A stretch of DNA of 64,000 nucleotides from contig NZ_CP160035.1 in assembly GCF_040703125.1 (NCBI RefSeq), forward strand, positions 3,127,001 to 3,191,000, written 5' to 3'. A program made the translations under genes and the position numbers. Shown here one piece after another: positions 27,223 through 64,000 of the stretch (positions are counted from its first letter, which is position 1; each line of letters starts with the position of its first letter). The stretch is from Flavobacterium ovatum. Its GTDB lineage: Bacteria > Bacteroidota > Bacteroidia > Flavobacteriales > Flavobacteriaceae. The notes under the pieces were generated by a model. That model did no database searches. It saw nothing but the letters and a program-made list of their open reading frames with translations, and was not told where the DNA came from.

Positions 27223-28209
27223 TTATGTTGACATAATATCTGAAACGCGTAATAATTCAATATCAATTTCTGATTTTGATTTAATAGCTTGTTCCAATGG
27301 TGTCAACTCCACTTTATTATTTTGTAAACCTACCATGTAGTTTGATTTACCTTCCATTAAAGACTCTACAGCCTTCACACCTAAACGGCTCGCCAAAACT
27401 CTGTCAAAACATGAAGGAGAACCTCCTCTTTGCATGTGACCTAAAACAGATACTCTTACATCATATTCAGGCAAATTAGCCTCAACATAATCTTTTAGTT
27501 CAAAAACCGTTTTACCAATTTTATCCCCTTCAGCAATTACAACAATACTAGATGATTTACCTGATGCTTTACTCTTTTTCAAAGACTCTAAAAGTCTATC
27601 TAAACCTAATTTTTCTTCAGGAATCAATATTTCTTCAGCTCCAGCTCCAATTCCTGCATTTAATGCAATATGACCAGCATCTCTACCCATAACCTCTACA
27701 AAGAATAGACGGTTGTGAGAAATAGCGGTATCTCTAATTTTATCAATACATTCTACAACAGTATTTAAAGCAGTATCATAACCAAGTGTATGACTTGTAC
27801 CAAAAATATCGTTATCAATTGTTCCTGGAATTCCAATTATTGGAAAATTATACTCTGAATTAAAAAGTAATCCTCCTGTAAAGGTTCCGTCTCCTCCAAT
27901 TACTACCAAAGCATCAATACCAGCTTTTAGCAATTGTTCGTGTGCTTTTTTACGACCTTCTGTTGTTCTAAATTCAGTTGAACGTGCTGATTTTAAAATA
28001 GTACCTCCTTTATTCACAATATTATTTACTGAACGTGGACCCATTTCGGCAAAATCACCTTCAATCATTCCTTGGTAACCTCTATAAATACCTACACACT
28101 CAATTTTATGATAAGCACAAGTTCTAACAACAGAACGAATAGCAGCATTCATTCCAGGTGAATCACCACCTGAAGTCAAAACTCCTATTTTATTAATCTT
28201 ATTTGACAT
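27223..28209 (-). CDS. pfkA: ATP-dependent 6-phosphofructokinase (intact copy)
   Basis: Phosphorylates fructose 6-phosphate, the committed step of glycolysis. 328 residues from the ATG at 28209 (MSNKINKIGVLTSGGDSPG). The frame continues 16 codons further upstream, but that stretch does not fit the family's N-terminus. Motifs: GGDSPG at 14-19, ATP-binding GGDGT at 105-109, and PGTIDND at 128-134 with the catalytic aspartates. The C-terminus is complete. The 5' two thirds (from 27533) lie inside the 18.5-kb duplicated unit; a truncated second copy appears at 46005-46682. Confidence 0.96.
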   Translation of the reverse strand: MSNKINKIGVLTSGGDSPGMNAAIRSVVRTCAYHKIECVGIYRGYQGMIEGDFAEMGPRSVNNIVNKGGTILKSARSTEFRTTEGRKKAHEQLLKAGIDALVVIGGDGTFTGGLLFNSEYNFPIIGIPGTIDNDIFGTSHTLGYDTALNTVVECIDKIRDTAISHNRLFFVEVMGRDAGHIALNAGIGAGAEEILIPEEKLGLDRLLESLKKSKASGKSSSIVVIAEGDKIGKTVFELKDYVEANLPEYDVRVSVLGHMQRGGSPSCFDRVLASRLGVKAVESLMEGKSNYMVGLQNNKVELTPLEQAIKSKSEIDIELLRVSDIMST

Positions 28210-28442
28210 TGTTTTTAGTTTAAGTCGTAAATTTAAGAAACATATCGCACTTTTCAACCTTATGAAATACTAAATTACTCAACCTCAGTAAATTCAAACG
28301 TTTTCGTTAATAAGTTTTCAAAAAAACAAAAAAAAATCAGTTTAACTAACATAAATCTATTTTTTTCATGTTTAACTAACAATTAATCATAATTTGAAAA
28401 TTTTTAAATAAAAACAACAATCCTGAATTTTCTATCTACAAC

Positions 28443-31400
28443 TTATTCTTCATCAGGTACAATTGCCTCCCTATTGGGTTTTGATTCTACTGGTTTTGGT
28501 TCTTTTTGTTTAGAAAAATTAATGTATTCAGGTGCTAAATTTGAATCTTGAAACTGGTCAATGTATTGAATTGTTGAATTTGACTTTTGATTTTTAAATA
28601 TTTTATTTACCAATTCTCGGAACGTATCAAAATCCACCTCATAAGAAACCCCTAATCCTTGCGTATAACCAATACCTTGTCCTATATAGTTAACATCATT
28701 TTCACGATTAAAGATTCGTAAGTTTAAAGTACCGTCATCATTGACTCTGTATTGTACTTCTAAGTCACCTACAACTGCTGATTCATTGATTCCTCCAAAT
28801 GGAACCCCTACTTTACCATTAATAGTAAATCTTTCATTTATTTTTGAAGAAATAGTAGCTACTACTCTACCATCAGTTTCTTGACCAATACGTTTGTCAG
28901 CTGATACATAATTAAAACCAACTTTAAATTTATCATCATCAGTTCTTATAATCCCTCCTAACAAACTAGAAGCCGTTTCAAACAAACTTCCTGAAAAATC
29001 AGATTGATTCACTCCTTCTGAACTTAAAAAACCTCCTGAAGATAGTAAATACAACGCTTGAGTTTGTCTAACATCCTTATCATATAACTTATATTGAATT
29101 TCAGATTTCAACACATTACTAACGGTAGGGAACTCAATATTAAAATCAGGTTCGGGACTAGCTAAATCTCCCTTAATACCAATAATCACATTCACGGGTA
29201 CTTTTCTATTAAAAGAAGAATTTTCTAAAAGTACCGCCGGATTCGCAATGGTTTTATATACGGCTTCTAAATTCAACTGAGCACGCATTGGATTTCCTTC
29301 CCAAGAAATAGATCCTCCTTTTTTTACATCAAATTTCTTATCAATAAGACCTCCATATTTGAAATTATAAGAACCTTCATAGGCTTGAAAATTCCCCCAC
29401 ATATTGAATTTCCCTAAAGTATTAATTTTGAATAATAACGACCCGTACCCCTTACCTTTCATTCCGTGTCCTGAATTTCGGTCTAAAATCACTTCTACTT
29501 CTGCATCAGGTGTTATATCTAAATCAAACTCTAACTCTAATCCTTTATAATTTCTAGAATTATCTAAAATCCCTTTCTTGATATTACTTTTTTCTTTTGC
29601 ACTTAAAAAATGTAATAGACTATTATCACCAAGGCTTTCTGCTTGATTTATTGGGATTTTCAAAGCAGACCCCTTCTCTGACTTAGCTTCCACTTTTATA
29701 AACAAACCGTTTGTAGGTCCTGTAATACTAGCATTTCCGTCAATAAATGCAGTTCCATAATATGCTGCATCTTCACTATCTTGAGTATCTAGAACTAACA
29801 ATCGTTTGGAATTGATAGCTAAATCTAATTTCCAATCCATAAATTTATCATGCTGAATACTTCCTCTCAATACTCCTTTAGTACCAAATTTAGAATCTGT
29901 GAGTATATTATTTCTTAACAGGAAGCTCTCGTCTAATAAGTCCACTATAGAACCCTCCGCCAATTTATAATCAACATTTAAGTATGGAATTGTTAGTCCT
30001 GCTCCATCTACAAAAAGTCGTCCACTAATTTTAGGCTGATTAACCGTTCCTCCTATATGTGAATTCCCTGAAACAAATCCTCTTATATTTGATAAAACAC
30101 TACCTCCAAGGGAACTTAAAATTCCTAGATTAAATTTATCCAATTTTAAATCCAAATCTAAGGCCGCTTCTTTACCTACAATTGTAAAATTTCCTTTTGC
30201 GTTGAACGATTCTAGATTTTTATTCTCCAAATAGGAATCAATTGAAAATTTTTCCAGGTTTTGGTCTCCTTCAATTTCAAACTTTAAAACCCCTAAATCA
30301 GTTTCGTTAATATTCAAATGATCTATTACCAATGCGGCTGTAGGTTTATATACCGTATTATTTTGAAAAAAATTAACTTCTCCATTTAAATTTCCCTTAA
30401 AAACAAACTTATCATCAGCAGGAGTAATCTTAAACAAATCAACATCTTTAAAACTCAATTTTAAATCTTTGTTGGTTTTACCGCCTGTTTTTCCTTTTAG
30501 AATAATTTCCTGATTTTCATGTGATAAAATAATATTATTGATAGAAAAATTCTTCAATAGCTTATCAAAGACAATTTGATTATCTGCTGTCTCTTTTTCG
30601 TTCAAAAACCATAGATTGTCTTTAATTTTTAATTCAGATTTGCTAATCCCTACAACATTTTCATTTTCCTTATTGATAGTATGGTATAAATTCAAATTGA
30701 AATAATCTTCTCCTTTTGACCCTCCTTTAAACTCTGACCTAAAAAACAAGGTATCTTTATTGGTCACGTTTATCAAACTAAAATCGCGTATTTTATAATA
30801 TTTAGTTTTAATACTATCTAATTCTAAATAAGCATTATACAAAGGATTTTTGTTATCTATTGCAATTCTAATATTATCAAATGTATTATCATCCGCAACA
30901 ATCTTAGGTGAATTAAAATTAAGTTTAAATTCCTGAGAATCTGATTTAATACTCCCCTTAATAACCGTATTTGATCCAATCGTTATATTTGGATAAAATA
31001 TTTCGATGATTTTATTATATACTGAAAAATTAAATTTTAAAAATTGTCCCTTATTAACTGGCTCCGGTTTAAAGTTGGTGTACAAGCTACCGATCGAGTT
31101 CCTAACTAAAACCCCTAACTCACTAAATTTAAACCTCCCTACAATTTCACCTTCAACAATGTCCGGAGAATTTAAGGTAATTGTTCTAATTTTACCTGCA
31201 TCAAAATTAGAATTGATTGAAAAGTCATTGAACGTATAAATATCTTTTTCATTCTGATAAGAGGTGTTTTTAAAATATACATTTCCCTGTAAATTTTCAA
31301 TCGTATTACCATCAACTTGAACAATAACATCCCCTTTAAAATTAGAAATAGTATCATTTACAAAATTCAATTTATGAAAATCAGCATTTCTAACATCTAT

Positions 31401-32873
31401 ATGAAAGTCATATTTACTGTCTTTTTTACTTAAATCGACCAAACCATCAAAATCCATATTTAGATTAGGATCGTCAACATTTACTTTACCTCTATAATAG
31501 GGGGGCTTAAAATTACCATTTACGGCTATATTTCTATAGTTATACTTATTATAATAAATCTTAGAAACTACTCCTTTTACACCCGTATCTAAATATTTTT
31601 TGGTAAAACCAACGCCTTCAATCTCTACATCCATGGTCACTTTACCTAAATCTTTCTCATCAAGAAAAATCCCTAAGTCAAAATCTTTGGTCACTACATT
31701 TCCATTGTATGAAGCTTTATCTATAAAGTCAATTTGATTGATACTCAAGTCTGACTTCACATCTCCGATGTCTGTAATCATTGAAAAATCAGCGTCCAAA
31801 TCGGTGGCGCTCCACTGGATATTACCTTTAATATTGAAGTTTCCAATTCTTTTTAATTCAATAGGTAGTTTTTTTCCTAAAACATTCGGAATCAATTGAA
31901 CTAAATTGTCATAGGAAGAAGATAATTTACTAAGATTAGCATCCATCAAAAAGCGTTGATGCTGTTTCCCCCAAATATTTTTGAAATTGATTGCTCCAAA
32001 TAACCTTGTATTCTTAGAGTCGTATAAACTCAAATTATTCAAGGTCAAGTTATTCAAGGTTCCTTTTACTTTTGTCGCCAAATTAAAAGACAAATCTTTA
32101 CCTAAATCATTGTAAAAAGGTCGAATGTCATTTGACGAAACTAATGACGGATATATTGTACCTTCAAATTTTACTTTGTCGTTGAAATCTGCAAAATCAG
32201 TAATTTTATAACTCAGTACGATATCTGCTTTAATCATGGACTCTTTGGTTTTGATGTCCAAATTCTTGAGTACTATTTGCTTTTTGGTATAACTAAATTT
32301 TGTATTTAATTCAGACACATATACTCCACGATGATCCAAAAACGACATTTTTTTTATTACGGAAGTAACTTCTGGCCCGTATAACTTGAAGTTTATTAAT
32401 AGGGCATTTAACTTGGTAAAATCAACATCTTTGGGAGCTACTCTATTTTCGTCGCTCAAAATAAAATGACTATTTACAATTGTTGCAACATCAGCCTCAA
32501 AAAGAGTATGTTTTCCTGTAGAAGGTTTTCCGTCATCAAAAGATTTTATAAATACATCAATATTAGTATCGTCTTCGTTCTTATAGGTTTTTAAATTAAA
32601 TAATAGGTTTTCTAATCTGATATCACCAAACATCAAATCACCATCTAATAACTTTTTGACATCTAAAATATTTGTATTAAGGATTTCACTGTAAATCAAA
32701 GTATCTTTATGATGGTCTCTAATTAAAACCTCTCTCAATTTAACACCTCCAAAAATATTTATTTTAGCGGTCCCCACATTGATATCAACCCCAAAATCAT
32801 TATTTAAGTTCTGGGTAACATAATGTGCAATTTTAGTTTGAACGAAAGAAGTTGAAAGAGCAATTCCTAACAA
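28443..32873 (-). CDS. tamB: TamB-like translocation/assembly module protein
   Basis: A giant AsmA/TamB-family protein (1476 residues) thought to bridge inner and outer membranes and to help lipid transport or outer-membrane protein assembly. The body is a long run of beta-strand repeats. The C-terminal DUF490-type domain is clear (GSLLFKINTLGKFNMWGNF, FDVKKGGSISWEGNPMRAQLNLEAVYKT, VNVIIGIKGDLASPEPDFNIEFP). The annotated start is TTG at 32873, the first standard start codon. However, codons upstream of it, back to the stop at about 32955, encode a Lys-rich segment and a hydrophobic helix that look like the natural membrane anchor. Translation may therefore begin at a non-standard codon such as ATT. 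Divergent from tsaD. Confidence 0.88.
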   Translation of the reverse strand: MLGIALSTSFVQTKIAHYVTQNLNNDFGVDINVGTAKINIFGGVKLREVLIRDHHKDTLIYSEILNTNILDVKKLLDGDLMFGDIRLENLLFNLKTYKNEDDTNIDVFIKSFDDGKPSTGKHTLFEADVATIVNSHFILSDENRVAPKDVDFTKLNALLINFKLYGPEVTSVIKKMSFLDHRGVYVSELNTKFSYTKKQIVLKNLDIKTKESMIKADIVLSYKITDFADFNDKVKFEGTIYPSLVSSNDIRPFYNDLGKDLSFNLATKVKGTLNNLTLNNLSLYDSKNTRLFGAINFKNIWGKQHQRFLMDANLSKLSSSYDNLVQLIPNVLGKKLPIELKRIGNFNIKGNIQWSATDLDADFSMITDIGDVKSDLSINQIDFIDKASYNGNVVTKDFDLGIFLDEKDLGKVTMDVEIEGVGFTKKYLDTGVKGVVSKIYYNKYNYRNIAVNGNFKPPYYRGKVNVDDPNLNMDFDGLVDLSKKDSKYDFHIDVRNADFHKLNFVNDTISNFKGDVIVQVDGNTIENLQGNVYFKNTSYQNEKDIYTFNDFSINSNFDAGKIRTITLNSPDIVEGEIVGRFKFSELGVLVRNSIGSLYTNFKPEPVNKGQFLKFNFSVYNKIIEIFYPNITIGSNTVIKGSIKSDSQEFKLNFNSPKIVADDNTFDNIRIAIDNKNPLYNAYLELDSIKTKYYKIRDFSLINVTNKDTLFFRSEFKGGSKGEDYFNLNLYHTINKENENVVGISKSELKIKDNLWFLNEKETADNQIVFDKLLKNFSINNIILSHENQEIILKGKTGGKTNKDLKLSFKDVDLFKITPADDKFVFKGNLNGEVNFFQNNTVYKPTAALVIDHLNINETDLGVLKFEIEGDQNLEKFSIDSYLENKNLESFNAKGNFTIVGKEAALDLDLKLDKFNLGILSSLGGSVLSNIRGFVSGNSHIGGTVNQPKISGRLFVDGAGLTIPYLNVDYKLAEGSIVDLLDESFLLRNNILTDSKFGTKGVLRGSIQHDKFMDWKLDLAINSKRLLVLDTQDSEDAAYYGTAFIDGNASITGPTNGLFIKVEAKSEKGSALKIPINQAESLGDNSLLHFLSAKEKSNIKKGILDNSRNYKGLELEFDLDITPDAEVEVILDRNSGHGMKGKGYGSLLFKINTLGKFNMWGNFQAYEGSYNFKYGGLIDKKFDVKKGGSISWEGNPMRAQLNLEAVYKTIANPAVLLENSSFNRKVPVNVIIGIKGDLASPEPDFNIEFPTVSNVLKSEIQYKLYDKDVRQTQALYLLSSGGFLSSEGVNQSDFSGSLFETASSLLGGIIRTDDDKFKVGFNYVSADKRIGQETDGRVVATISSKINERFTINGKVGVPFGGINESAVVGDLEVQYRVNDDGTLNLRIFNRENDVNYIGQGIGYTQGLGVSYEVDFDTFRELVNKIFKNQKSNSTIQYIDQFQDSNLAPEYINFSKQKEPKPVESKPNREAIVPDEE

Positions 32874-32999
32874 TAGTAAGAGGAGAATTAACCCAATAAT
32901 TAAACTTAAAAATATTTTAATGTACTTTTTGATCTTCTTGATTTTTAATTTTTTCTAAAAACAGGATATTGCACAAAGAAAGAGTCTTTCCTTTCGCAA

Positions 33000-33040
33000 A
33001 AATTCTTTAATTTTGGCTGCGCCGTAAAATTAAAGAATTT
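33000..33040. promoter_or_regulatory. 15-bp inverted repeat in the tamB/tsaD divergent promoter region
   Basis: AAATTCTTTAATTTT (33000-33014) is the exact reverse complement of 33026-33040, around an 11-base GC-rich loop GGCTGCGCCGT. The left arm overlaps TAATTTTG (33008-33015), a perfect -7 box in the tsaD direction. It may be an operator or an mRNA leader hairpin. In the tamB direction TATATTTG (33062-33055) also matches the -7 consensus. Confidence 0.6.
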
Positions 33041-33083
33041 AAAATTCGGTTTGTCAAATATAATTCAAAATTTGTGCCTTTTT

Positions 33084-34106
33084 ATGCAAAATCCCGAGGT
33101 TTTTATTCTTGCCATCGAAAGTTCCTGTGATGATACTGCTGCCGCTGTTTTAAATAACGATAAAGTATTGTCAAATGTTGTTGCTAATCAGCTAATTCAT
33201 TCACAATATGGAGGTGTAGTACCTGAACTAGCTTCGAGAGCACACCAACAAAATATTGTTCCCGTAATTGATGCCGCTCTTAAAAAAGCCAATATTCAAA
33301 AAGAACAACTCAGTGCCATTGCTTTTACCCAAGGTCCAGGACTTATGGGTTCACTACTCGTGGGGAGTTCTTTTGCGAAGTCAATGGCTAGTGCATTAAA
33401 CATCCCTTTGATTGCCGTAAATCATATGCATGCACATATTTTAGCCCATTTTATTGATGAAGAAGGCTATGACAAACCAGAATTTCCGTTTTTAGCCTTA
33501 ACCATTAGTGGTGGACATACTCAAATTGTGAGAGTTGAAGGTTTTTTTGATATGACCATAATTGGCGAAACAACTGATGATGCGGTTGGAGAAGCATTTG
33601 ATAAAACTGCAAAAATATTAGGACTTCCCTATCCTGGTGGTCCATTAGTTGATAAAAATGCACAATTAGGAAATCCAATAGCTTTTAAGTTTACCAAGCC
33701 TAAAGTTCCGGGATTGGATTTTAGTTTTTCTGGTCTCAAAACGGCTATTTTGTATTTTATCCAAAAGAAAAAACTTGAGAACGAAAATTTCATTGACGAA
33801 AACATCAATGATATTTGTGCTTCGGTTCAACATACTATCATCGAGATTTTGATGGACAAACTAAAATTAGCTGTCAAAGAAACTGGCATCAATAAAATAG
33901 CAATTGGCGGCGGCGTTTCTGCTAATTCAGGTATTAGAAAAACGCTAAAAGAAGGCGAACAAAAATACGGGTGGAAAACCTATATCCCCAAATTTGAATA
34001 CACCACAGATAATGCTGCAATGATAGGAATTGTAGGTTATCAAAAATATTTAACACAACAATTTGAAACCGCTACAGTTGTTTCAAAAGCACGAATCCAA
34101 TTTTAA
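33084..34106 (+). CDS. tsaD: tRNA N6-threonylcarbamoyladenosine transferase TsaD (copy 1)
   Basis: Transfers the threonylcarbamoyl group onto A37 of ANN-decoding tRNAs, together with TsaB/TsaE. 340 residues from the ATG at 33084 (MQNPEVFILAIESSCDDTAAAV). A TTG 11 codons upstream is in frame but adds residues unlike the family start. ASKHA-fold motifs: metal ligands His114 and His118 in NHMHAHILAHF, the SGGHTQIV phosphate loop, GEAFDKTAK, and the C-terminal IGGGVSANSGIR and YTTDNAAMIG. Normally an essential single-copy gene, so its appearance twice in this window is notable. Starts a plus-strand operon with rsmE. Confidence 0.96.
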   Translation: MQNPEVFILAIESSCDDTAAAVLNNDKVLSNVVANQLIHSQYGGVVPELASRAHQQNIVPVIDAALKKANIQKEQLSAIAFTQGPGLMGSLLVGSSFAKSMASALNIPLIAVNHMHAHILAHFIDEEGYDKPEFPFLALTISGGHTQIVRVEGFFDMTIIGETTDDAVGEAFDKTAKILGLPYPGGPLVDKNAQLGNPIAFKFTKPKVPGLDFSFSGLKTAILYFIQKKKLENENFIDENINDICASVQHTIIEILMDKLKLAVKETGINKIAIGGGVSANSGIRKTLKEGEQKYGWKTYIPKFEYTTDNAAMIGIVGYQKYLTQQFETATVVSKARIQF

Positions 34107-34109
34107 GCT

Positions 34110-34820
34110 ATGCAATTATTTTACAATATTGACCTAAACGAATCTACAGAAAGCTTTTCTTTTGACAAAGAAGAAAGCAGGCACATCATTAAAGTATTGC
34201 GGAAAAAAGATGGTGATATACTACACGTTACCAATGGATTAGGACTTTTATTTGAAACTAAAATTAATTTGGCCTCCGATAATAAATGTACGGTTGATAT
34301 TTTATCTTTCACAAAAAAAGAACCTTCTAAATATCATTTGCATTTGGCAGTAGCCCCTACCAAAATGAACGATCGATTTGAATGGTTTTTGGAAAAAGCA
34401 ACTGAAATAGGTATTCATGAAATTACACCAATTATTTGTGATCGTTCTGAAAGAAAAGTGATCAATCAAGATCGTTATGAGAAAATAATCTTATCGGCTT
34501 TAAAACAAGCTAACGAGCTTTATTTACCCAAATTAAACCCTGCCATTTCATTTAAAGATTTTGTTGGTCAAACAGAAAAAAAAGGCCTTCAATTAATTGC
34601 TCATTGCGAAGAAACGGATAAAAAAACACTTAAATCTATTTTGAAACCAAATGAAGATGTCACCATGCTGATAGGACCTGAGGGAGATTTTTCAGATAAA
34701 GAAATCCAACTAGCATTAGAGAATAACTTCCAAGCCGTATCTTTGGGAAATACTAGATTACGAACTGAAACAGCTGCAATGGTAGCCTGTCATAGTATTG
34801 CTTTTTTTAATGAGAATTAA
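34110..34820 (+). CDS. rsmE: 16S rRNA m3U1498 methyltransferase RsmE (copy 1)
   Basis: SPOUT-class enzyme that methylates U1498 of 16S rRNA. 236 residues: N-terminal PUA-like domain with ESRHIIKVLRKKDGD (about 22-36) and a C-terminal SPOUT domain with the trefoil-knot motifs MLIGPEGDFSDKE and LGNTRLRTETAA. Length is typical. It starts 3 bp after tsaD and 5 bp before the DUF4159 gene, so it is clearly in one transcript. Confidence 0.94.
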   Translation: MQLFYNIDLNESTESFSFDKEESRHIIKVLRKKDGDILHVTNGLGLLFETKINLASDNKCTVDILSFTKKEPSKYHLHLAVAPTKMNDRFEWFLEKATEIGIHEITPIICDRSERKVINQDRYEKIILSALKQANELYLPKLNPAISFKDFVGQTEKKGLQLIAHCEETDKKTLKSILKPNEDVTMLIGPEGDFSDKEIQLALENNFQAVSLGNTRLRTETAAMVACHSIAFFNEN

Positions 34821-34825
34821 ATCAG

Positions 34826-35464
34826 ATGAAAAAAATCTATTTCGTTTTTCTTTTTCTGTCCTTGAACATTTTTGCTCAAGAAATTGCCTTATTGAAATAT
34901 AGTGGCGGTGGTGATTGGTATGCAAATCCCACTTCATTGCCTAATTTAATTCAATTTTGCAACACCAACATTAACACCACTTTAAAAACAAAACCAGCAA
35001 CTGTAGAACCAGGAAGCCCCAATCTTTTTACGTACCCATTTATTCATTTGACAGGTCATGGAAATGTGGTTTTTAGTGATGCCGAAGTAAAAAACCTTCA
35101 GGATTACTTAAACTCTGGTGGTTTTTTACACATTGACGATAATTATGGTTTAGACCAATATATTCGAAAAGAAATCAAAAAATTGTTTCCTAATACAGCC
35201 TTAATAGAAATTCCGGCAACGCATTTAATTTTTCAAAAGCCGTATGCTTTTCCGAATGGTTTACCTAAAATTCACGAACATGATGGCAAACGACCACAAG
35301 CTTTTGGAATATTTGTAAAAAGTAGATTAGTCTTACTATACACTTATGAGTGCGACTTAGGAGATGGTTGGGAAAATCCCGAAGTCAATAATGACCCACT
35401 TTCCGTTCGAGAAAAAGCGTTGAAAATGGGTGCCAATATTATACATTATATATTCAACAACTAG
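34826..35464 (+). CDS. DUF4159 exported protein (copy 1)
   Basis: A 212-residue periplasmic protein of unknown function. Signal peptide about 1-17 (ends NIFAQ), followed by a class-I glutamine amidotransferase-like fold as in DUF4159: ALLKYSGGGDWYANPTSL, YPFIHLTGHGNVVFSD, LQDYLNSGGFLHIDDNYGLD and SRLVLLYTYECDLGDGWE. Members of this family occur in Bacteroidota and myxobacteria, often near MoxR/vWA gliding or stress clusters; no such cluster is seen here. Cotranscribed with rsmE at 5 bp spacing. Confidence 0.8.
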   Translation: MKKIYFVFLFLSLNIFAQEIALLKYSGGGDWYANPTSLPNLIQFCNTNINTTLKTKPATVEPGSPNLFTYPFIHLTGHGNVVFSDAEVKNLQDYLNSGGFLHIDDNYGLDQYIRKEIKKLFPNTALIEIPATHLIFQKPYAFPNGLPKIHEHDGKRPQAFGIFVKSRLVLLYTYECDLGDGWENPEVNNDPLSVREKALKMGANIIHYIFNN

Positions 35465-35528
35465 ACTAGACTAATTTAATTTTTAGTCGGTTTTTAAACT
35501 ACATTTGAATCCATATCTATCCCTTTTT

Positions 35529-36620
35529 ATGATTACATCTAAAATAATTGCAAACGGAATTTTGAAAGCTATTGCTTTTTTAATCATCACATGTTTAGTA
35601 CTTTTCTTTTTGTACCAAATTCAGACCGTCATTCTCTATCTTGTAATTTCGTTAATCCTTTGTTTAATAGCCAATCCCTTTGTTTCTTTCTTAAAAAAAA
35701 GACTGAAATTTAATAATACCATGGCGACTGTTGCAACACTTATATTATTCATTTCATTACTTATAGGTTTTGTCCTTTTATTTGTACCACTAATCATATC
35801 ACAAGCAGAAAATTTATCCTTATTGGATACTAATTTACTCCAAAATCAATTTATTGTTATCGAAAAAAACATAGAGAATTATTTCAATATCAATCACATC
35901 AATTTAGAAGAACTATTGAAAGAATCAAACTTATCTTCTAAAATCAACTATAACTATTTTACAGATTTCATCAATTCAATCTTAAACCTCATTGCTAGTT
36001 TTGGAATGGGATTAGCGTCCGTTTTTTTTATCACTTTTTTCTTCCTGAAAGACCAATTACTATTTAAAGAAAAAGCTAAAATGATTCTTCCTGATGAGAA
36101 TGAAGATAAAATCTTAAATTCTATCGAAAAGACTAACCAACTATTAACACGTTATTTTATTGGTTTATTGATCCAATTGACAGCTGTATTTGTCATGTAT
36201 TTGATTGTTCTTTTAATCTTTAATTCAAAAAATGCTTTTATCATTGCGTTTTTATGTGCCTTACTAAATATCATACCTTATATAGGACCAATCATAGGAA
36301 CTGTTTTAGCTGCTATTCTAACTTTAATTGGCGGAATAGGGACTGATTTTAGAACTGAAATGCTTCCTACGACGATTTATATTGTTATTGGTTTTTTAAT
36401 CGTTCAAGTGATTGATAACAACATCAACCAACCGATTATTTTCTCAAAAAGTGTCAAATCTCATCCTTTAGAAATTTTCTTAGTAATCCTTATTAGTGGA
36501 ATTACATTTGGTGTTTTTGGAATGGTAGTGGCAATTCCTATTTATACAATATTGAAAGTAGTATTGAAAGAATTCTTTCCTAAGAATAAAATAGTCTCTG
36601 TTTTAACCGAAAATATTTAG
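35529..36620 (+). CDS. AI-2E/PerM-family membrane transporter (copy 1)
   Basis: A 363-residue inner-membrane protein of the AI-2 exporter (PerM/TqsA) superfamily. About eight hydrophobic segments are visible, with the usual large soluble loop between helices 3 and 4 (about residues 105-155) and a conserved late region ALLNIIPYIGPIIGTVLAAI and the closing run GMVVAIPIYTILKVVLKE. Substrate is uncertain; family members have been linked to AI-2 export and Na+/H+ antiport. I chose the ATG at 35529 over an in-frame TTG eight codons earlier. The next gene starts 2 bp after its stop. Confidence 0.85.
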   Translation: MITSKIIANGILKAIAFLIITCLVLFFLYQIQTVILYLVISLILCLIANPFVSFLKKRLKFNNTMATVATLILFISLLIGFVLLFVPLIISQAENLSLLDTNLLQNQFIVIEKNIENYFNINHINLEELLKESNLSSKINYNYFTDFINSILNLIASFGMGLASVFFITFFFLKDQLLFKEKAKMILPDENEDKILNSIEKTNQLLTRYFIGLLIQLTAVFVMYLIVLLIFNSKNAFIIAFLCALLNIIPYIGPIIGTVLAAILTLIGGIGTDFRTEMLPTTIYIVIGFLIVQVIDNNINQPIIFSKSVKSHPLEIFLVILISGITFGVFGMVVAIPIYTILKVVLKEFFPKNKIVSVLTENI

Positions 36621-36622
36621 CT

Positions 36623-37804: not shown

Positions 37805-37812
37805 CCATAACC

Positions 37813-38379: not shown

Positions 38380-38476
38380 GACTTTATATAGACCTGCAAT
38401 CCTTAATTTTAGGATAAATAAAATCTTTATTCTGAATTAAAATACGGCTTTACACAAAAGTATAATTCATTCACTT

Positions 38477-39971: not shown

Positions 39972-40017
39972 ACACATAGTCTAAAATTATTATTATTTTC
40001 GGGGAAAGTTACAGCTA

Positions 40018-51346: not shown

Positions 51347-51472
51347 TAGTAAGAGGAGAATTAACCCAATAATTAAACTTAAAAATATTTTAATGTACTT
51401 TTTGATCTTCTTGATTTTTAATTTTTTCTAAAAACAGGATATTGCACAAAGAAAGAGTCTTTCCTTTCGCAA

Positions 51473-51513
51473 AAATTCTTTAATTTTGGCTGCGCCGTAA
51501 AATTAAAGAATTT
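51473..51513. promoter_or_regulatory. 15-bp inverted repeat, tamB/tsaD promoter region (copy 2)
   Basis: Exact second copy of the inverted repeat at 33000-33040, overlapping the tsaD-facing -7 box. Confidence 0.6.
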
Positions 51514-51556
51514 AAAATTCGGTTTGTCAAATATAATTCAAAATTTGTGCCTTTTT

Positions 51557-52579: not shown

Positions 52580-52582
52580 GCT

Positions 52583-53293: not shown

Positions 53294-53298
53294 ATCAG

Positions 53299-53937: not shown

Positions 53938-54001
53938 ACTAGACTAATTTAATTTTTAGTCGGTTTTTAAACTACATTTGAATCCATATCTATCCCTTTT
54001 T

Positions 54002-55093: not shown

Positions 55094-55095
55094 CT

Positions 55096-56277
55096 TTGAA
55101 TACCTCTATTTTAGCACCTAAAATTCAGCATTTTATAAACCAAAACATTGGTGTTTCTTTGTCTAAATTAGCGTTGCAAAAGAATCCATTTCCAGAAATA
55201 GAATGGATTGACATTTTAAAACAAATGGAAGCAAAATCAAAAGCTAAGGACAAATTACCAACTTGGTTTCAAACGAAAGACATCCTCTACCCTACTAAAA
55301 TTTCGGTAGAGCAAACATCCTCTGAAAAGACAGCGTATTACAAATCGAGTTTAATATCCGGAGAAAGTCTCATCGATTTGACTGGAGGTTATGGCGTTGA
55401 TGATTTTTATTTTGCTAAAAAAATAAAAAAAGTAGTTCATTGTGAAATCAATGAAGAACTTTCAAACCTTGTCAAACACAATTTGGAGCAACTAAAGGTT
55501 TCAAACATTCAATGTTATATAGGAGATAGTAGAGAAACATTGATAGATCTCCACCAAAAATGGGATTGGATATACATTGATCCTTCGAGACGAAATGATG
55601 CCAAAGGCAAAGTTTTTATGCTTCAAGATTGTTTACCGAATGTTCCTGAAAACTTGGATTTTTATTTCACCCATTCTGACAAAATCCTGATTAAAACAGC
55701 ACCTTTGCTAGACATAAGCTCAGCTTTATCCGAATTAAAAAATGTAAAAACTATTCATATTATTGCATTGGAGAATGAGGTAAAAGAATTGTTGTGGGAA
55801 ATACATAAAGACTACCAAGGCGATATTTCTATAAAAACGGTTAATCTCATCAAAGATAAAACAGAAACGTTTGAATTTATTTTGGGAGAAAATACAAATT
55901 CACCTCTTTTTGGAACTCCAAAAAAATATATTTATGAGCCTAACAGTGCTGTCATGAAATCAGGTGGATTTGATGAAGTCGCATTGCATTTTAATTTAGA
56001 AAAACTTCACAAGCACTCCCATTTATATACTTCAGAAGAACGCATTGACTTCCCGGGTCGTGTATTTGAGATCCATAAAATCATACCTTATAACAAAGGA
56101 GAACTAAAAGCGACATTAGAAAACACCAAAGCCAATATTACCACCCGAAATTTTCCAGAAACGGTAGAGAATATTCGGAAGAAATGGAAAATAAAAGATG
56201 GAGGAGATACCTATTGTTTTTTTACAACCATTGAAAATAACGATAAAATAGTTTTAATTTGCAACAAAACACAATAA
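55096..56277 (+). CDS. SAM-dependent methyltransferase with THUMP-like domain (copy 2)
   Basis: Identical 393-residue probable RNA methyltransferase (DLTGGYGVDD, DPSRR), TTG start, 2 bp after the transporter gene. Confidence 0.8.
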   Translation: MNTSILAPKIQHFINQNIGVSLSKLALQKNPFPEIEWIDILKQMEAKSKAKDKLPTWFQTKDILYPTKISVEQTSSEKTAYYKSSLISGESLIDLTGGYGVDDFYFAKKIKKVVHCEINEELSNLVKHNLEQLKVSNIQCYIGDSRETLIDLHQKWDWIYIDPSRRNDAKGKVFMLQDCLPNVPENLDFYFTHSDKILIKTAPLLDISSALSELKNVKTIHIIALENEVKELLWEIHKDYQGDISIKTVNLIKDKTETFEFILGENTNSPLFGTPKKYIYEPNSAVMKSGGFDEVALHFNLEKLHKHSHLYTSEERIDFPGRVFEIHKIIPYNKGELKATLENTKANITTRNFPETVENIRKKWKIKDGGDTYCFFTTIENNDKIVLICNKTQ

Positions 56278-56285
56278 CCATAACC

Positions 56286-56852
56286 ATGAAAAATACCATC
56301 CTCGCCTTTTTATTAATCGCAAGCTTTCCCGTTTTTTCCCAAAAAGATTGTGAATACAGTGCTAATGTAAAAGATTCTTTAGGAGTCTATAAATTAACAA
56401 AAGAATATTTAGTCTCTGAGAAAAACTTCGCTGGAAAATCGGAATACATCTTTTGTTCTTTGGTTTCTAATGATGGATTTCCTGCTTTGAATGTACAGTT
56501 GATTCAAAAAAGTAAAGAATTTTTATCTGCAAATTGTTTTGATAAAAGTTCCAAATTATATTTACAATTACAAAACGGAAAAATCGTCACACTTTTACAT
56601 GTTAACAAAGAAAGTTGCGGATCATTAATCAGAAACGACGAAGGATTTGATAACAGAGTGACAATGGGAACCTTTATGTTTGTTAAAGGAGCAATCGAAG
56701 AACTTAAAAGTTCACCTGTAAATTTGATGCGAATTAAATTCTTAACCAGTACAGATGATTTTATAGTTAAAAAAGAAATTACTTCAGAGATGAACCAAAA
56801 AGTTTATTTCCCTGAAACTTATTTTATGGATTACTTAAAATGTATTGACTAA
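56286..56852 (+). CDS. Small exported protein of unknown function (copy 2)
   Basis: Identical 188-residue protein with N-terminal signal peptide; no recognised domain. Confidence 0.65.
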   Translation: MKNTILAFLLIASFPVFSQKDCEYSANVKDSLGVYKLTKEYLVSEKNFAGKSEYIFCSLVSNDGFPALNVQLIQKSKEFLSANCFDKSSKLYLQLQNGKIVTLLHVNKESCGSLIRNDEGFDNRVTMGTFMFVKGAIEELKSSPVNLMRIKFLTSTDDFIVKKEITSEMNQKVYFPETYFMDYLKCID

Positions 56853-56949
56853 GACTTTATATAGACCTGCAATCCTTAATTTTAGGATAAATAAAATCTT
56901 TATTCTGAATTAAAATACGGCTTTACACAAAAGTATAATTCATTCACTT

Positions 56950-57813
56950 CTAGTTTTTTCCCATAACATATTTGTTAATCATATACTGTGTTATGGGTTT
57001 CAATGGTTTATCATTTTCTGGATGATATCCAGGATTATTATAAAATTCCAATTCATTTCCTTTTTTGCAATACCACACTATCGGCTTATTATGTTTAAAA
57101 AAAGTCGTGCTATCGCAAACTTGAATTTTTCTAAAATTGAGCATATTCTCATCTAAAGGTATTTTAGAATATAAATTCAATACCCCCACTTTATTCTCTT
57201 CACAAGTTACCATTTCATAATGGTCATTCTGCCACTGCATACACTTCTCTTTTGGCAAAAGAAAAAATCCCACACCACAAATTACAAAAGTGATCAGTAC
57301 AGCAATACTTATTTGTTTATAAAAAAACCTATTCCCATTTAGCTCTACACTTGACGCAGCCTTTAGTACCTCAATAACATTCTTTTCCTGATTTTTTATT
57401 TCATTATTTACAAGACCATCACTTTCTATTTGATTTTCACTCCTCAAATGATTTTCTGCTTTAGAAAATTTTAAATAAGGTCTTGGTTCAAAACCTACCA
57501 AAATTGCGGTAATATTCACTGCTTCCATATCTACTAAATCGGTCTCCCCTTTCAAGAAAGTCTCTATAGGTCTAAATTTATCCGTCAAATCCTTTAATTT
57601 ATTGAAAGACGTAGGACTAAACTCAAAGCCGCAGAAAGAGGCAAAACTCATTAAATCATCCTTCTTGGAATTGTCCTTAAACAATTCAAAACACAAATTC
57701 CTCAATTTGGCACGTGACGGATTAAATAAGAAAGTAGAATAATTCCCATATTTCTCAAGCTCATATTGAACTTTTATGGCTTTTTTATAATCCTCTAAAG
57801 TGTTTTTTTTCAT
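56950..57813 (-). CDS. Single-pass membrane protein of unknown function (copy 2)
   Basis: Identical 287-residue protein from the ATG at 57813: N-terminal soluble domain with DKFRPIETFLKGETD, one transmembrane helix, Cys-containing extracytoplasmic tail. Confidence 0.6.
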   Translation of the reverse strand: MKKNTLEDYKKAIKVQYELEKYGNYSTFLFNPSRAKLRNLCFELFKDNSKKDDLMSFASFCGFEFSPTSFNKLKDLTDKFRPIETFLKGETDLVDMEAVNITAILVGFEPRPYLKFSKAENHLRSENQIESDGLVNNEIKNQEKNVIEVLKAASSVELNGNRFFYKQISIAVLITFVICGVGFFLLPKEKCMQWQNDHYEMVTCEENKVGVLNLYSKIPLDENMLNFRKIQVCDSTTFFKHNKPIVWYCKKGNELEFYNNPGYHPENDKPLKPITQYMINKYVMGKN

Positions 57814-58222
57814 GCGTAGATAATATTTTTTTATAGGAATATCGAATTCGCATTTCATTATTAGTGTTTGCGACCAAATCTAGACCATGTTCATTTCATA
57901 AGCGAATCGGAATTTTCAGGAATCCAAAGGAATTCTAGGAATCTTAGGAATTCCCTGCTATTATCACTTCAAAACCTGCTGTTCTTTGCATCAGAATTTG
58001 TTGCTGTTCTATTTCGCGATAAGAACAAATGTACAAAACAACTTCTAAAAAAGTGTTGCTATACAGAACTGAATTATTATTCCGGGAAGTATAATAAAAC
58101 CGCTCTGTACCAGCGCACTTCACTTCCCAAAAAACTAGTAATCAATACCGTTAGGCCTTGAAAATTATTCGATTCTCATTATCGAACGGCCCAACCTATG
58201 TCCAATTTTTAAACTTAAAATC
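57814..58222. other. Gene-free spacer with phased GGAAT repeats (copy 2)
   Basis: Same spacer as 39341-39749; the five GGAAT units start at 57909, 57919, 57929, 57938 and 57947. Confidence 0.5.
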
Positions 58223-58444
58223 ATGAGAAAATTATTTTTTATTGCCGTTTTATCCGTGTCAAGCTTAGTTAATGCATCAAATGTTGTATTGAGTACAACA
58301 ACAACTTTAAAACCAATACTAACCTCCAAAAACAATGAAAAACATGTCGAAAAAGAGAGCTGTATTAGTGTCCTATTTATAGCAAACGATGGTCCTGGAG
58401 ATGGTGATATTATTATTTATCCTCCAAAAAGAAAAACAATATAG
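58223..58444 (+). CDS. Small exported peptide precursor (copy 2)
   Basis: Identical 73-residue precursor with signal peptide and Gly/Asp-rich, PPKRK-containing C-terminus, 46 bp before the TPR kinase gene. Confidence 0.6.
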   Translation: MRKLFFIAVLSVSSLVNASNVVLSTTTTLKPILTSKNNEKHVEKESCISVLFIANDGPGDGDIIIYPPKRKTI

Positions 58445-58490
58445 ACACATAGTCTAAAATTATTATTATTTTCGGGGAAAGTTACAGCTA

Positions 58491-60212
58491 ATGCAACGTT
58501 CCCCGATTATTATACTTTTCTTATTTTTATTTCTGTTGCCTTTTGTCTGTTGTCAAAAGGAGGCAAAAACTATAGAAAAAAACTTTTCTCCTAGCGCAAA
58601 ATACCAACTTGCTGCAAAATTATCAGCATCGGCTGACTCCTACTTTAAAACAGCAAAATTTGATAGTGCTTTTTTTAATTACAATAAATCCAAAGAACTT
58701 TTTAAAGAAGAAAAAGACAGTACCTTCACCGCTTACAACTTAATAAAACTGGCTAAAATTCAGCAAATATTTGGCGATTACACTAGTTGTGAAGAAACAC
58801 TTACTGAAGCTTTAGACTATTCAAAAGATAAGCCCGAATACCTACTAGCCATTCATAACCTATTAGGAATTACTTCCAAAGAATTGAAAAATTATGAAGA
58901 CGCTATTATTTATTATAAAATTGTTTTAAATAAGATACAACAGGAGCATTTGAAAGTTATACCATTGAATAACATTGCTTCTGTTTATATTGAACAAAAA
59001 AAATATTCCCAAGCCATACTACTATTAGAACCTAGTTTACAAACTGATATACTAGACAGCCATCCCAAAACAAAAGCTATTCTGATGGATAATTTAGGTT
59101 TTGCATACTCTAAAAATGGTGAATCAAAAAAAGGATTGTCTTTGATGAACAAAGCATTAGCCATTCGTGTTCAAACCAACGATTCCTACGGAAACATCTC
59201 CAGTTATTTGCATTTAGCCGATTATTATCAGGATATTGATTCTCAAAAGTCAAATAAAAATGCTGTCTTAGCATACCAAAAAGCGACTCAAACTAAAAGT
59301 ATAGATGAACAGCTACAAGCGCTTTCATTCTTAATGCTAAATAATCCCCAAAAAGGACAAAATTCTTCTGCACAATTATTTGTAAACCTAAATGACAGTA
59401 TCAAAAAAGTGCGCAATAATGCCAAAAATCAATTTGCCAAAATCAAATACGACGCGAGTAAAGCCACATTAGAAAACATCAAATACAAAGAAGAAAGATC
59501 CGAGATTGCACTTCAACTTCAAACCAAAAAAAATCAAACTTATTTATTTGGATTTGGCTTCCTGCTACTACTCATTACCATTATATTTTTGGTGCATTAT
59601 TTCAAAAATAAAAACAAACAAGCACGCTTACAAGCAAGTTACTCTACGGAAACTCGTATTTCCAAAAAACTTCATGATGAACTCGCTAATGATGTTTTCT
59701 ATGCCATGACTTTTGCCGAAACTCAGGATTTACAAAATCCACTCAAGAAAGAAACCTTATTGGATAATTTGGATAAAATTTACAAGCGAACCCGAAATAT
59801 TTCCAAAGAGAATAGTCCAATTGATACCGGCGAAAACTTTGTTTTTAATTTAAAACAAATGCTCAATAGCTACAAATCAAATACGGTTGAAGTTATCATA
59901 AAAACCCAAAACCCTATCGATTGGTCCCAAATAGAGGACAATAAAAAAATCGCAATTCAAAGAGTTTTACAAGAATTGATGGTAAATATGAAAAAATATA
60001 GCCAAGCAAATTTTGTTGTAATTGGCTTCGATTCCAACCAAAACAGCCTGTTAATAGACTATTCAGACAACGGGATTGGCTTCTCCGAAAAATTAATTTT
60101 GAAAAATGGTTTGCAAAATGCGGAAAACCGTATTCATGCTATCAATGGACTTCTTACTTTTGACACACAAACCCATAAAGGATTTAAGGCTAAAATTATA
60201 ATTCCTAACTAA
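58491..60212 (+). CDS. TPR-containing sensor histidine kinase (copy 2)
   Basis: Identical 573-residue sensor: exported N-terminal TPR domain, one membrane helix, HisKA_3-like His395, ATPase domain. Confidence 0.9.
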   Translation: MQRSPIIILFLFLFLLPFVCCQKEAKTIEKNFSPSAKYQLAAKLSASADSYFKTAKFDSAFFNYNKSKELFKEEKDSTFTAYNLIKLAKIQQIFGDYTSCEETLTEALDYSKDKPEYLLAIHNLLGITSKELKNYEDAIIYYKIVLNKIQQEHLKVIPLNNIASVYIEQKKYSQAILLLEPSLQTDILDSHPKTKAILMDNLGFAYSKNGESKKGLSLMNKALAIRVQTNDSYGNISSYLHLADYYQDIDSQKSNKNAVLAYQKATQTKSIDEQLQALSFLMLNNPQKGQNSSAQLFVNLNDSIKKVRNNAKNQFAKIKYDASKATLENIKYKEERSEIALQLQTKKNQTYLFGFGFLLLLITIIFLVHYFKNKNKQARLQASYSTETRISKKLHDELANDVFYAMTFAETQDLQNPLKKETLLDNLDKIYKRTRNISKENSPIDTGENFVFNLKQMLNSYKSNTVEVIIKTQNPIDWSQIEDNKKIAIQRVLQELMVNMKKYSQANFVVIGFDSNQNSLLIDYSDNGIGFSEKLILKNGLQNAENRIHAINGLLTFDTQTHKGFKAKIIIPN

Positions 60213-60221
60213 TACTGTTTT

Positions 60222-60890
60222 ATGTTTACAAAAGTTTTAATTGCAGATGATATTGATTTCAATGATGTAGGTGCCGCCCAAATTCTAAACGAATTAGAGG
60301 TACTCGAAGTACAATATGCCAAATATTGTGACGAAGCCTTGCTGAAAATAAAAAAAGCACATCAAGATAATAATCCGTTTCAATTGCTCATCTCCGATTT
60401 GTCTTTCAAGGCAGATCATCAAGTCAACAAACTAAACTCAGGTGAGGAATTGATTCAAGCAGTCAAAGAACTCTTTCCAGAGATTAAAATAATTGCATTT
60501 TCTATCGAAGATCGTCCACATAAAATAAAAGGACTTTTTGATGATCTCAATATCGATGGCTATGTACTAAAAGGTCGCAATACTATTTATGATCTTAAAG
60601 TAGCAGTTCAAAAAACTTTTAACAATGAACCCGATAACATTTCGCCTGAATTGTTATACCTCATGCAAGACAAAACCACCAGCGAAATCAACCAATACGA
60701 TATTGTACTCCTCAAAAAACTCTCTTTGGGCATCAGCCAAGAAGGTATGGAAGCCGTTTTAAAACAAGAAGGCATCACTCCAAATAGCAAGAGCTCCATC
60801 GAGAAACACATCAATAAACTCAAAATATACTTTAAGGCCAACAACGCCACCCATCTAGTAGCCATTGCCAAAGATTTAGGCGTCATATAA
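60222..60890 (+). CDS. Response regulator with LuxR-like domain (copy 2)
   Basis: Identical 222-residue regulator with Asp59 receiver site and C-terminal helix-turn-helix; partner of the kinase 9 bp upstream. Confidence 0.88.
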   Translation: MFTKVLIADDIDFNDVGAAQILNELEVLEVQYAKYCDEALLKIKKAHQDNNPFQLLISDLSFKADHQVNKLNSGEELIQAVKELFPEIKIIAFSIEDRPHKIKGLFDDLNIDGYVLKGRNTIYDLKVAVQKTFNNEPDNISPELLYLMQDKTTSEINQYDIVLLKKLSLGISQEGMEAVLKQEGITPNSKSSIEKHINKLKIYFKANNATHLVAIAKDLGVI

Positions 60891-60913
60891 ATTTCCGTTT
60901 ATAATTGCCATAC

Positions 60914-60939
60914 AAAAGCTTCCTTCGGGGAGCTTTTTG
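60914..60939 (+). terminator. Terminator of the TPR kinase/regulator operon (copy 2)
   Basis: Same UUCG-loop hairpin with T-tail as at 42441-42466. Confidence 0.9.
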
Positions 60940-60979
60940 TTGTTTATACCCTAAGTTAATTTAAGATAGCTTAAGTATT

Positions 60980-61103
60980 TTGGGCGTGCCCCGCCAAAAA
61001 AAGCGGGTCGGGCTAAACGTTACAAGTCCTCAACAAGTTCCGCTATCGCTACACTTGTTTGTGGGCTTTCCTCTTTTATCCCTCACGCAAAACAGCATTC
61101 AGC
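60980..61103. repeat. Dispersed intergenic element, copy B (duplication copy 2)
   Basis: Exact second copy of 42507-42630; blocks GGGCGTGCC, GTCGGGCT and ATCCCTCACGCA also occur at 8110-8240. Confidence 0.55.
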
Positions 61104-61353
61104 TAAACGATTTTGAATTTATAACAACGATTTTTAAATCGTACATGAAAGAGCAAATTGACAAAACATTTCATTATTTGTTTAGCATAAATAAGTGTAT
61201 TGGTTTCCTAAAATCCCCTCTGACATCAAAAAATGTTAATCAAATAGCTTAAATCTATCACCTAAAAGGTATTTCCCGCATACGCTCAACACTTAAGTCA
61301 ATGATTAACACAGAAAACAATTCCCAAAATTAACTTTTTCACATTTTTTTACT

Positions 61354-61401
61354 GTGGTTACGGTTTACCGTAAGGAAATCGTTTTTTATGAAGGTAATTT
61401 T
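61354..61401 (+). promoter_or_regulatory. 48-bp repeat with TTACGG palindrome, element R1 (copy 2)
   Basis: Exact second copy of 42881-42928, upstream of the second lipopeptide gene. Confidence 0.6.
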
Positions 61402-61463
61402 ACCAAAAATCAAGTCGTCATATTAAAATGAAGACGAGCTTATATCCTTAAAAACAAAATAAA

Positions 61464-61604
61464 ATGAGAATTTTTAAAAATCTAGTTGTCATAACTGCTT
61501 TAGTATTTTCTACTGTTATATTAATAAACTGTGAAGGAAGAAAAGGTAAAATTAATGCTTCAATCATAGAAACTTCTATTTCCCCTCCAGTTCCAAACAA
61601 GTAA
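61464..61604 (+). CDS. Tiny lipopeptide precursor, 46 residues (copy 2)
   Basis: Identical to 42991-43131: hydrophobic signal, Cys23, 24-residue mature part ending SISPPVPNK. Confidence 0.5.
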   Translation: MRIFKNLVVITALVFSTVILINCEGRKGKINASIIETSISPPVPNK

Positions 61605-61669
61605 ATTTTATAATTCATTCACAAAAAAATTAATTACCTACCTATTCACGATTTCAAATCCTTTTACTT

Positions 61670-61720
61670 AAATGAAGTTCATAAAACTTCATTTATAAAA
61701 GCTTCAAAAGTGGAAGCTTT
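61670..61720 (+). terminator. Two hairpins after the lipopeptide gene (copy 2)
   Basis: Same pair of 8-10-bp stems as at 43197-43247. Confidence 0.5.
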
Positions 61721-61745
61721 CTGGTTTTTCTGGTATTTAGTTTTT

Positions 61746-61793
61746 GTGATTACGGTTTCCCGTAAGGGAATGAATATTTATGGGGGTAGGTTT
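61746..61793 (+). promoter_or_regulatory. 48-bp repeat with TTACGG palindrome, element R2 (copy 2)
   Basis: Exact second copy of 43273-43320, upstream of the HTH-lipoprotein operon. Confidence 0.6.
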
Positions 61794-61977
61794 GGAGAAT
61801 AATAAAACAGAGGCACTTTTCAGCAAATACACACCCTATGTTTCTAAACAAAATTAATTCTAGTAAAAAAATTTCAGTGATGATCAAATTGAATGCTAGT
61901 GAATTAAATAATTTTCGCAAACCAATTCTGATCACTGCATTCTAGTTGCAGTAACGAACAGTATAATTGTAATCTAA

Positions 61978-62196
61978 ATGGATATTAGAATCATTATAAG
62001 AATACACAATTGCATAAAGAGCAGTTTAACTGGTACTCCTGGTGAACTTAGTCAAAGACTGGAAGTTTCTGAGCGCACTTTATACAATTATATTTCTTTT
62101 ATGAAGAACGACTTAAAAGCACCTATACAATTTTGTAAGATTAAAAGAACCTATGAGTATAAAGGAGAGTGTTATTTAAAATTTGAGCATAAATAA
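61978..62196 (+). CDS. Small HTH DNA-binding protein (copy 2)
   Basis: Identical 72-residue HTH_11-like protein (GTPGELSQRLEVSERTLYNY); first gene of the second copy of the lipoprotein operon. Confidence 0.7.
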   Translation: MDIRIIIRIHNCIKSSLTGTPGELSQRLEVSERTLYNYISFMKNDLKAPIQFCKIKRTYEYKGECYLKFEHK

Positions 62197-62202
62197 AATA
62201 TT

Positions 62203-62613
62203 ATGGGTATTAATTTACAGAAGAAGCTAATTATAAAATTAAGATCAAAATTGATTTGTTTGCTTTTTATTTTAAGCCTTTCATCATGTCAATCTTTCAA
62301 GAAAGATAATTTTTTGAACAGCTTTGAATCATTTGTTAACGATGTTGAATTGAATAGTAAAAATTACAATAAAAAAGAATGGGCAGATTCAGATAAAGAA
62401 TATTATGCTTATGTCGAAATAAAATATCCTGAATTTAGAGAGACCATGACTGATGCGGAAATAAATACGACAAATGTATTAATAGGGAAATATCAGGCGC
62501 TAAAAATCAAATCAGAGATATTGAATATTAAACAAGGTTTAAATGATATTTTGGATCAAGCATCATCTTTTGCAAATGAAATCGTATCTGACACAACTTC
62601 AAATAATAAATAA
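62203..62613 (+). CDS. Small lipoprotein of unknown function (copy 2)
   Basis: Identical 136-residue helical lipoprotein with Cys29 lipobox (SLSSC). Confidence 0.65.
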   Translation: MGINLQKKLIIKLRSKLICLLFILSLSSCQSFKKDNFLNSFESFVNDVELNSKNYNKKEWADSDKEYYAYVEIKYPEFRETMTDAEINTTNVLIGKYQALKIKSEILNIKQGLNDILDQASSFANEIVSDTTSNNK

Positions 62614-62627
62614 TTTTAATAATAACC

Positions 62628-64000
62628 ATGAAAAATTTCATAAAAATCAGCTTACCAATAGTCACTTTATTTTGTCTACAAGGTTGTTGTAAAAAAGAAG
62701 ATTCAAGTGCTTGGTCAAAATATAAGCCTCTAAACGAGATTGAAAAACATATTGAGGGATATTATGGTGCTTCATTAGGAGGAGAAGCTAATCCTAAAAC
62801 GGGTAATACAGCTGTGTTTGTAGACTTTTCAGACGGATTGATTCAGGCCTATAATAATAATCCTTCAAATGCTATTATCATTCAAGCAATTACAAACAAA
62901 CTTGTTAGTCCAGATATAGAGTGGTTTGCTTTGGGAAACTCAAAAATTACAAAGCTTGATTTAGCAAGTAATCAAATTTACAATAAAGTTACAGATCCCA
63001 AAGAATATAAAGATATAATGGCTCCAATTAAGGGTGCTCTGCAAAAAATAACATCTTCAAATAATGATGCATTATTAATTACCGATTTTGAAGAATATAC
63101 AGGTGATGGCAAAGAGCAATTCGAGAATTATCCTAAAGAATATTTTACAAATTGGTTGGCAAAGGGAAATTCAATTACATTTTTCTATACTGATTACTCG
63201 GAAATAAACAAAAAATCTGGAATTACTACTTCAAAACATCTCTATTATACAGTGTTTACTCACGGGAAGGCAACAGAAACAAGTATGGTTTCACAAATAA
63301 GAAATGCTTTAAAAGGAAGGGTAACAACTAAGATATTTGAATTAAATAATAGTCCATATACTATTTCAAATGACTATGGAGGTAAAGATAAAACCGGAAT
63401 AGCTAATAACACTTTATCACAAGTGGCAACAACTATTTTAAATGCATCTGCAGATAAGAATTTACCTTATGAAGTAATCGGTGTAGAAAATAATTGGGAT
63501 GATGGTTTAGATAAATATGTTCAAAATATAATTCAAAAAGAAAAAGGACTTTTTATGAATAAATTACTATTGAATGCATCTGATCAATCTTCTTATAAAT
63601 TAAAAAAGATAGCTGTAAAGGTTTATGATGTTTCCGATGATTTTGAAAAATATGCCCGTTGCAACAAAGCTAAAAATCATATTCCAGTTCTTACCAAAAA
63701 TGACAAAAAGGATTTGGTTTGGGATGAAAAATCAAAAAATGACCCAATTACTGTTGAATGCTACCAACCTAACGAGAAAACAATTGTACCCAACTACCTT
63801 TACAAATCAAAGGATTCAACTGCTAATGAATGGTCTGAAGTATTTGATGTTGATAGTGGAATATTCAATAGTCATTTAAAAAACGATCCAAAAAAAATCG
63901 AGCTAAAATTGATCTTTCATAAGAATTATAAAAAAGATAATTTTAAAAAAGAGGATGCATTAATTAGAATTGATTACATAATTGAAGATGTTACTTTCAA
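62628..64000 (+). CDS. Large vWA-like lipoprotein (copy 2, cut by window end)
   Basis: Same gene as 44155-45708. The frame is open from the ATG at 62628 to the window edge, covering about 457 of 517 codons, including the lipobox and the whole vWA-like region. The missing part is the last ~60 residues. Confidence 0.6.
   Translation, partial: MKNFIKISLPIVTLFCLQGCCKKEDSSAWSKYKPLNEIEKHIEGYYGASLGGEANPKTGNTAVFVDFSDGLIQAYNNNPSNAIIIQAITNKLVSPDIEWFALGNSKITKLDLASNQIYNKVTDPKEYKDIMAPIKGALQKITSSNNDALLITDFEEYTGDGKEQFENYPKEYFTNWLAKGNSITFFYTDYSEINKKSGITTSKHLYYTVFTHGKATETSMVSQIRNALKGRVTTKIFELNNSPYTISNDYGGKDKTGIANNTLSQVATTILNASADKNLPYEVIGVENNWDDGLDKYVQNIIQKEKGLFMNKLLLNASDQSSYKLKKIAVKVYDVSDDFEKYARCNKAKNHIPVLTKNDKKDLVWDEKSKNDPITVECYQPNEKTIVPNYLYKSKDSTANEWSEVFDVDSGIFNSHLKNDPKKIELKLIFHKNYKKDNFKKEDALIRIDYIIEDVTF

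Follow-up and report, generated by a model that had tools for sequence, protein, structure and literature searches.

An exact 18.5-kb tandem repeat in the Flavobacterium ovatum chromosome record, very probably left by an untrimmed circular overlap

The chromosome record of Flavobacterium ovatum carries one long segment twice, head to tail, within the stretch of 64,000 bp analysed here (the window, positions 3,127,001-3,191,000 of a single contig of 4,249,485 bp). The window ends before copy 2 does, and the full second copy was seen with the following 15 kb of the contig (L004), where it extends for 477 bp beyond the window to contig position 3,191,477, i.e. position 64477 in window coordinates. 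The coordinates of the features are collected in Table 1. The whole ORFs of the unit encode a TamB-domain protein, TsaD, an RNA methyltransferase (PF04452), a DUF4159 protein, an AI-2E-type transporter, a THUMP-like-domain protein and a DUF6565 protein, along with ORFs of 197, 302 and 517 aa. The remaining two are a TPR protein resembling a sensor kinase, its kinase part having been recognised by eye, and a receiver-domain protein that scores below the cut-off of Pfam.

Table 1. Features of the repeat and of its three edges (window coordinates unless L004 is given)
Feature	Position	Strand	Remarks
pfkA (phosphofructokinase), whole	27223-28257	-	Crosses the left outer edge at 27533; PFK domain
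Copy 1	27533-46004	+	18,472 bp; would be the end of the original linear contig
Twelve whole ORFs of at least 136 aa inside the unit	28443-45708		Present twice
Membrane-protein-like gene cut by the joint	45736-46023	+	Chimeric 95-aa ORF
Joint	46004-46005		Sole novel adjacency; blunt, 0 bp of microhomology, no inserted bases
Copy 2	46005-64000 in the window, on to 64477	+	18,473 bp; would be the start of the original linear contig
Second pfkA, truncated by the joint and frame-shifted	46005-46730	-	Remaining ORF 46215-46730; PFK domain positions 1-147 of 277
Only difference between the copies	46236		Copy 2 one base longer, 232 bp inside the joint
Membrane-protein-like gene, whole 111-aa version	L004 409-744, across 64477		Whole at the right outer edge

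The unit is confirmed as an exact two-copy head-to-tail repeat. A BLASTN comparison of the window with itself gave one match of 17,996 columns, which pairs 27533-45527 with 46005-64000 and has no mismatch and a single gap. This agrees, as does the extension into the contig, with the original prediction that the sequence from 27533 repeats from 46005 with one indel, and the repeat can now be followed to 64477. Between the two full copies, 231 of 231 bases ahead of the indel and 18,241 of 18,241 bases beyond it agree, with 0 substitutions, so that all 18,472 bases of copy 1 are matched in copy 2, which has 1 extra base. Identity over 18.5 kb cannot have arisen by chance. When the 4.25-Mb genome was searched with a 400-base probe spanning the joint, the joint was found once, the end of the unit at one further place and the start of the unit at one further place. 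An interior 1-kb probe found 2 full places in the whole genome, plus two 41-bp matches on the opposite strand inside those same places. The presence of more than two copies was rejected on these genome probes, which give two copies and one joint.

Both outer edges of the repeat are natural sequence, and hence the only new adjacency is 46004|46005. Both sides of this joint lie within genes, as had been claimed: the antisense pfkA, with its PFK domain, and a small membrane-protein-like gene without a Pfam match are each cut. When the flanks of the breakpoint were compared in register, 0 bp were common in the forward direction and 0 bp in the backward direction. The longest direct words common to both outer edges are 6, 6, 7 and 10 bp within 25, 50, 100 and 300 bp, respectively, and the corresponding means for random pairs of places are 5.7, 6.7, 8.1 and 9.8 bp (60 pairs per distance, 15 pairs for 300 bp); for inverted words at the edges, the lengths come without such a random control. 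The 10-bp word lies across the left edge and has its second occurrence 252 bp inward of the right edge, where it is out of register; its length is no more than chance would give. No transposase was found by Pfam among the 18 ORFs of at least 80 aa in or across the unit. With no edge repeat above chance and no transposase in the scanned ORFs, recombination between flanking repeats or through an insertion sequence was rejected as the origin of the repeat, and the earlier claim that neither element is present stands on the 0 bp at the joint, the near-random words within 300 bp and the 18 ORFs scanned.

The left outer edge at 27533 is continuous in related genomes. Four related sequences were compared there, one of which (L017) does not reach 27533, and in the other three (G025, G042 and G045) the alignment runs straight across the edge, the longest over 15,015 columns at 78.6% identity. 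For the right edge a protein comparison was used, because a 1,850-base DNA probe of the right end of the unit, run against nine relatives (G025 plus eight one- or two-contig genomes), matched just one of them, over only 100 bases. The whole membrane-protein-like gene has its best homologue from another source in P0002, which aligns with it over 111 of 111 residues, without a gap and across 64477. The match of the chimeric ORF to the same homologue stops at residue 92 of 95. A protein search with this chimeric ORF matched 121 proteins, and among the 120 matches listed none covers more than 98% of the query. The comparison with related genomes, which the original prediction had proposed as a check, thus finds both outer edges matched in relatives, the left by DNA and the right by a protein homologue. 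We also searched 61 genomes drawn evenly from a larger group of the genus, the window's own included, with a pfkA probe. It matched 58 of the 60 other genomes (59 of 61 with the window's own) and none has a second copy; two of the matching genomes gave a second row, one with the match split on two contigs (G031) and the other with a match of ~50 bp (G004).

The right end of the unit lies in what appears from the sequence comparison to be a species-variable insert at ~38.4-76.4 kb, ~19.6 kb long in single copy. In three of the four sequences compared (G025, G042 and G045), the core block to ~38.4 kb adjoins the gene at ~76.4 kb directly, and in the fourth (L017) parts of the insert are present near both insert edges; this comparison covers alignments of more than 250 columns. 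We considered and rejected a duplicated genomic island, as the repeat starts in the core gene pfkA and ends inside the variable insert, not at the edges of an island. A cluster in the insert (window 43730-46004 and L004 409-11187) encodes two TerD-domain proteins, a TerC protein, an OmpA-domain protein, a tubulin-like protein (a weak match, below the cut-off of Pfam) and two proteins of 1292 and 445 aa without a Pfam or NCBIfam match. When 10 proteins were run through PADLOC, only the OmpA-domain protein was matched, weakly, by a ZorB model.

The two copies differ by a single inserted base close to the joint. The offset between them shifts from 18,472 to 18,473 at 27764/46236, and the original prediction, which placed the only indel about 230 bp inside the junction, was accurate to within a few bases (232 bp into copy 2). 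Of the 58 genomes that matched the pfkA probe, the nine relatives whose loci the probe returned in addition to that of the window were compared with both copies, and all nine align to copy 1 gap-free and to copy 2 with one gap. The indel breaks the frame of the copy-2 pfkA fragment, already truncated by the joint. The chance that an indel at a random position falls no more than 232 bp from the start of copy 2 is 1.3%, and it is 2.5% for that distance on either side of the joint. A lone indel without any substitution, 232 bp from what would be the end of a contig, has the look of a long-read consensus error. The further detail of the original prediction, that errors cluster at contig ends, would depend on this one indel (n=1), which carries little weight, with no difference at the other original contig end or elsewhere in the unit.

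The record starts at a place suggesting that its present ends are not those of the original contig. The contig starts 15 bp ahead of the ATG of dnaA, which encodes a 475-aa protein carrying DnaA_N, Bac_DnaA and Bac_DnaA_C domains. Finished chromosomes are usually rotated to start near dnaA, and the start of this record probably came from such a rotation. No long overlap was found between the first and the last 12 kb of the record, where the only matches are of 166 bp and 62 bp. The 166-bp stretch is 81% identical and lies near both record ends (L006 3373-3528 and L005 6423-6588), and part of it also matches L006 4413-4473. The start beside dnaA and the lack of a long end overlap together make it probable that the original contig has its ends within the record, and the joint at 46004|46005 is their natural candidate. 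In an unrotated record the original ends would be at the first and last base and the idea of an overlap would fail; this record was probably rotated.

Taken together, the data make it very probable that the 18.5-kb repeat is an assembly artefact, an untrimmed overlap of the circular chromosome with itself, and not a real doubling of genes. A long-read assembler would have written the circular chromosome as a linear contig starting at the present position 46005. This contig would have gone once round, run 18,472 bp over its own start and ended at the present position 46004. The two ends would then have been joined and the sequence rotated to begin near dnaA with the redundant end still in place, and within the record the overlap would thereby show up as a tandem repeat. 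It was directly observed that the repeat is exact, that the joint is blunt, that both outer edges are natural sequence, that the record starts next to dnaA and that a single indel lies near the joint. An untrimmed 18.5-kb overlap, once rotated, accounts for all of these observations; the behaviour of the assembler, the rotation and the omitted trimming are what we infer from them. The untrimmed overlap, as originally predicted, is supported in that three potentially contrary tests, on rotation, homology at the joint and the outer edges, did not go against it. By arithmetic only, the true chromosome would be of ~4,231,012 bp if the repeat is an artefact.

Two other origins were weighed against the untrimmed overlap. 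A real and very recent tandem duplication of 18.5 kb, formed by illegitimate joining without homology and fixed or frequent in the sequenced culture, is unlikely, even if one new joint between two intact outer edges is also the anatomy expected of it. The zero substitutions would set, by our reasoning, only a loose limit on its age, and the pfkA fragment that carries the indel would escape selection in a real duplication as well. Against it stand the 0 bp of homology at the joint with no edge repeat above chance, the lack of a transposase among the 18 scanned ORFs, and the fact that the copies, with 0 substitutions over 18.5 kb, differ solely by one inserted base next to the joint. In recombination-proficient cells, large exact tandem repeats are moreover unstable. 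A local mis-join in finishing, through a chimeric read or similar and unrelated to the original contig ends, would also leave a blunt joint without homology. Such a mis-join is highly improbable, as it needs an exact 18.5-kb stretch to be re-inserted beside itself, whereas the route through overlapping ends needs no further steps, and the original contig ends, to judge from the start beside dnaA, are somewhere inside the record.

Published duplications bear on the missing homology at the joint. A study of spontaneous rearrangements in Salmonella (PMC3411829), in which five of eight tested duplications were verified, describes tandem duplications that are head-to-tail with one new joint, as here. 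At least four of the verified duplications have microhomology, of 11, 13, 14 and 16 bp, against 0 bp here; the study screened for long microhomology and the comparison with a 0-bp joint is biased to that extent. In the experiments of another study (PMC11111574), duplications reportedly formed without a need for microhomology. A genuine tandem duplication usually, though not always, has homology, microhomology or a mobile element at its joint, and finding none here lowers the likelihood of a real duplication.

The untrimmed overlap has close parallels in descriptions of long-read assembly. Long-read assemblers are documented in parts of PMC6966772 to leave kilobases of overlap between the start and the end of a contig. 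Sections of that paper and of PMC4699355 describe, for Canu and NextDenovo, kilobases of near-identical sequence at both ends of a circular contig, longer with longer reads, which if untrimmed lead to duplicated sequence, as here. The overlaps in those sections are at contig ends, whereas ours is inside a record that begins beside dnaA. Circularisation errors move to mid-sequence when assemblies are rotated, as a portion of PMC8442456 reports: with the start moved, missing or duplicated end bases appear mid-sequence, and polishing did not remove them. The Flye errors in that portion averaged 3.7 bp versus 18.5 kb in our case, which is nearer to an overlap of 80 kb mentioned there for other assemblies.

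The repeat matters as a question of quality control, and the chromosome is probably ~18.5 kb too long in the record, with twelve genes too many. If the repeat is an artefact, the 95-aa ORF is a chimera, the pfkA pseudogene is false, and comparative work would pick up spurious gene duplications from the record. The combination of an exact tandem repeat, a blunt mid-gene joint, a single contig starting at dnaA and a lone indel at the side of the joint could serve as a signature to screen other "complete" genomes. If the duplication were real, twelve genes would be doubled, including tsaD and a probable pair of sensor and response regulator, and the truncated pfkA fragment would already be decaying.

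Outside the repeat the window has further features. Rfam gave no match in the window or in the first and last 12 kb of the contig, and no tRNA was found in the window. A perfect 50-bp palindrome (18001-18050) lies between two ORFs of the same strand, and the genome has similar sequence at 9 further places, of which 7 match on both strands, as in a dispersed palindromic element. A 995-aa protein (10095-13082) has PAS, histidine-kinase and receiver domains, and near its N-terminus a 63-bp unit is repeated 15.4 times in frame (21 residues; 10177-11147).
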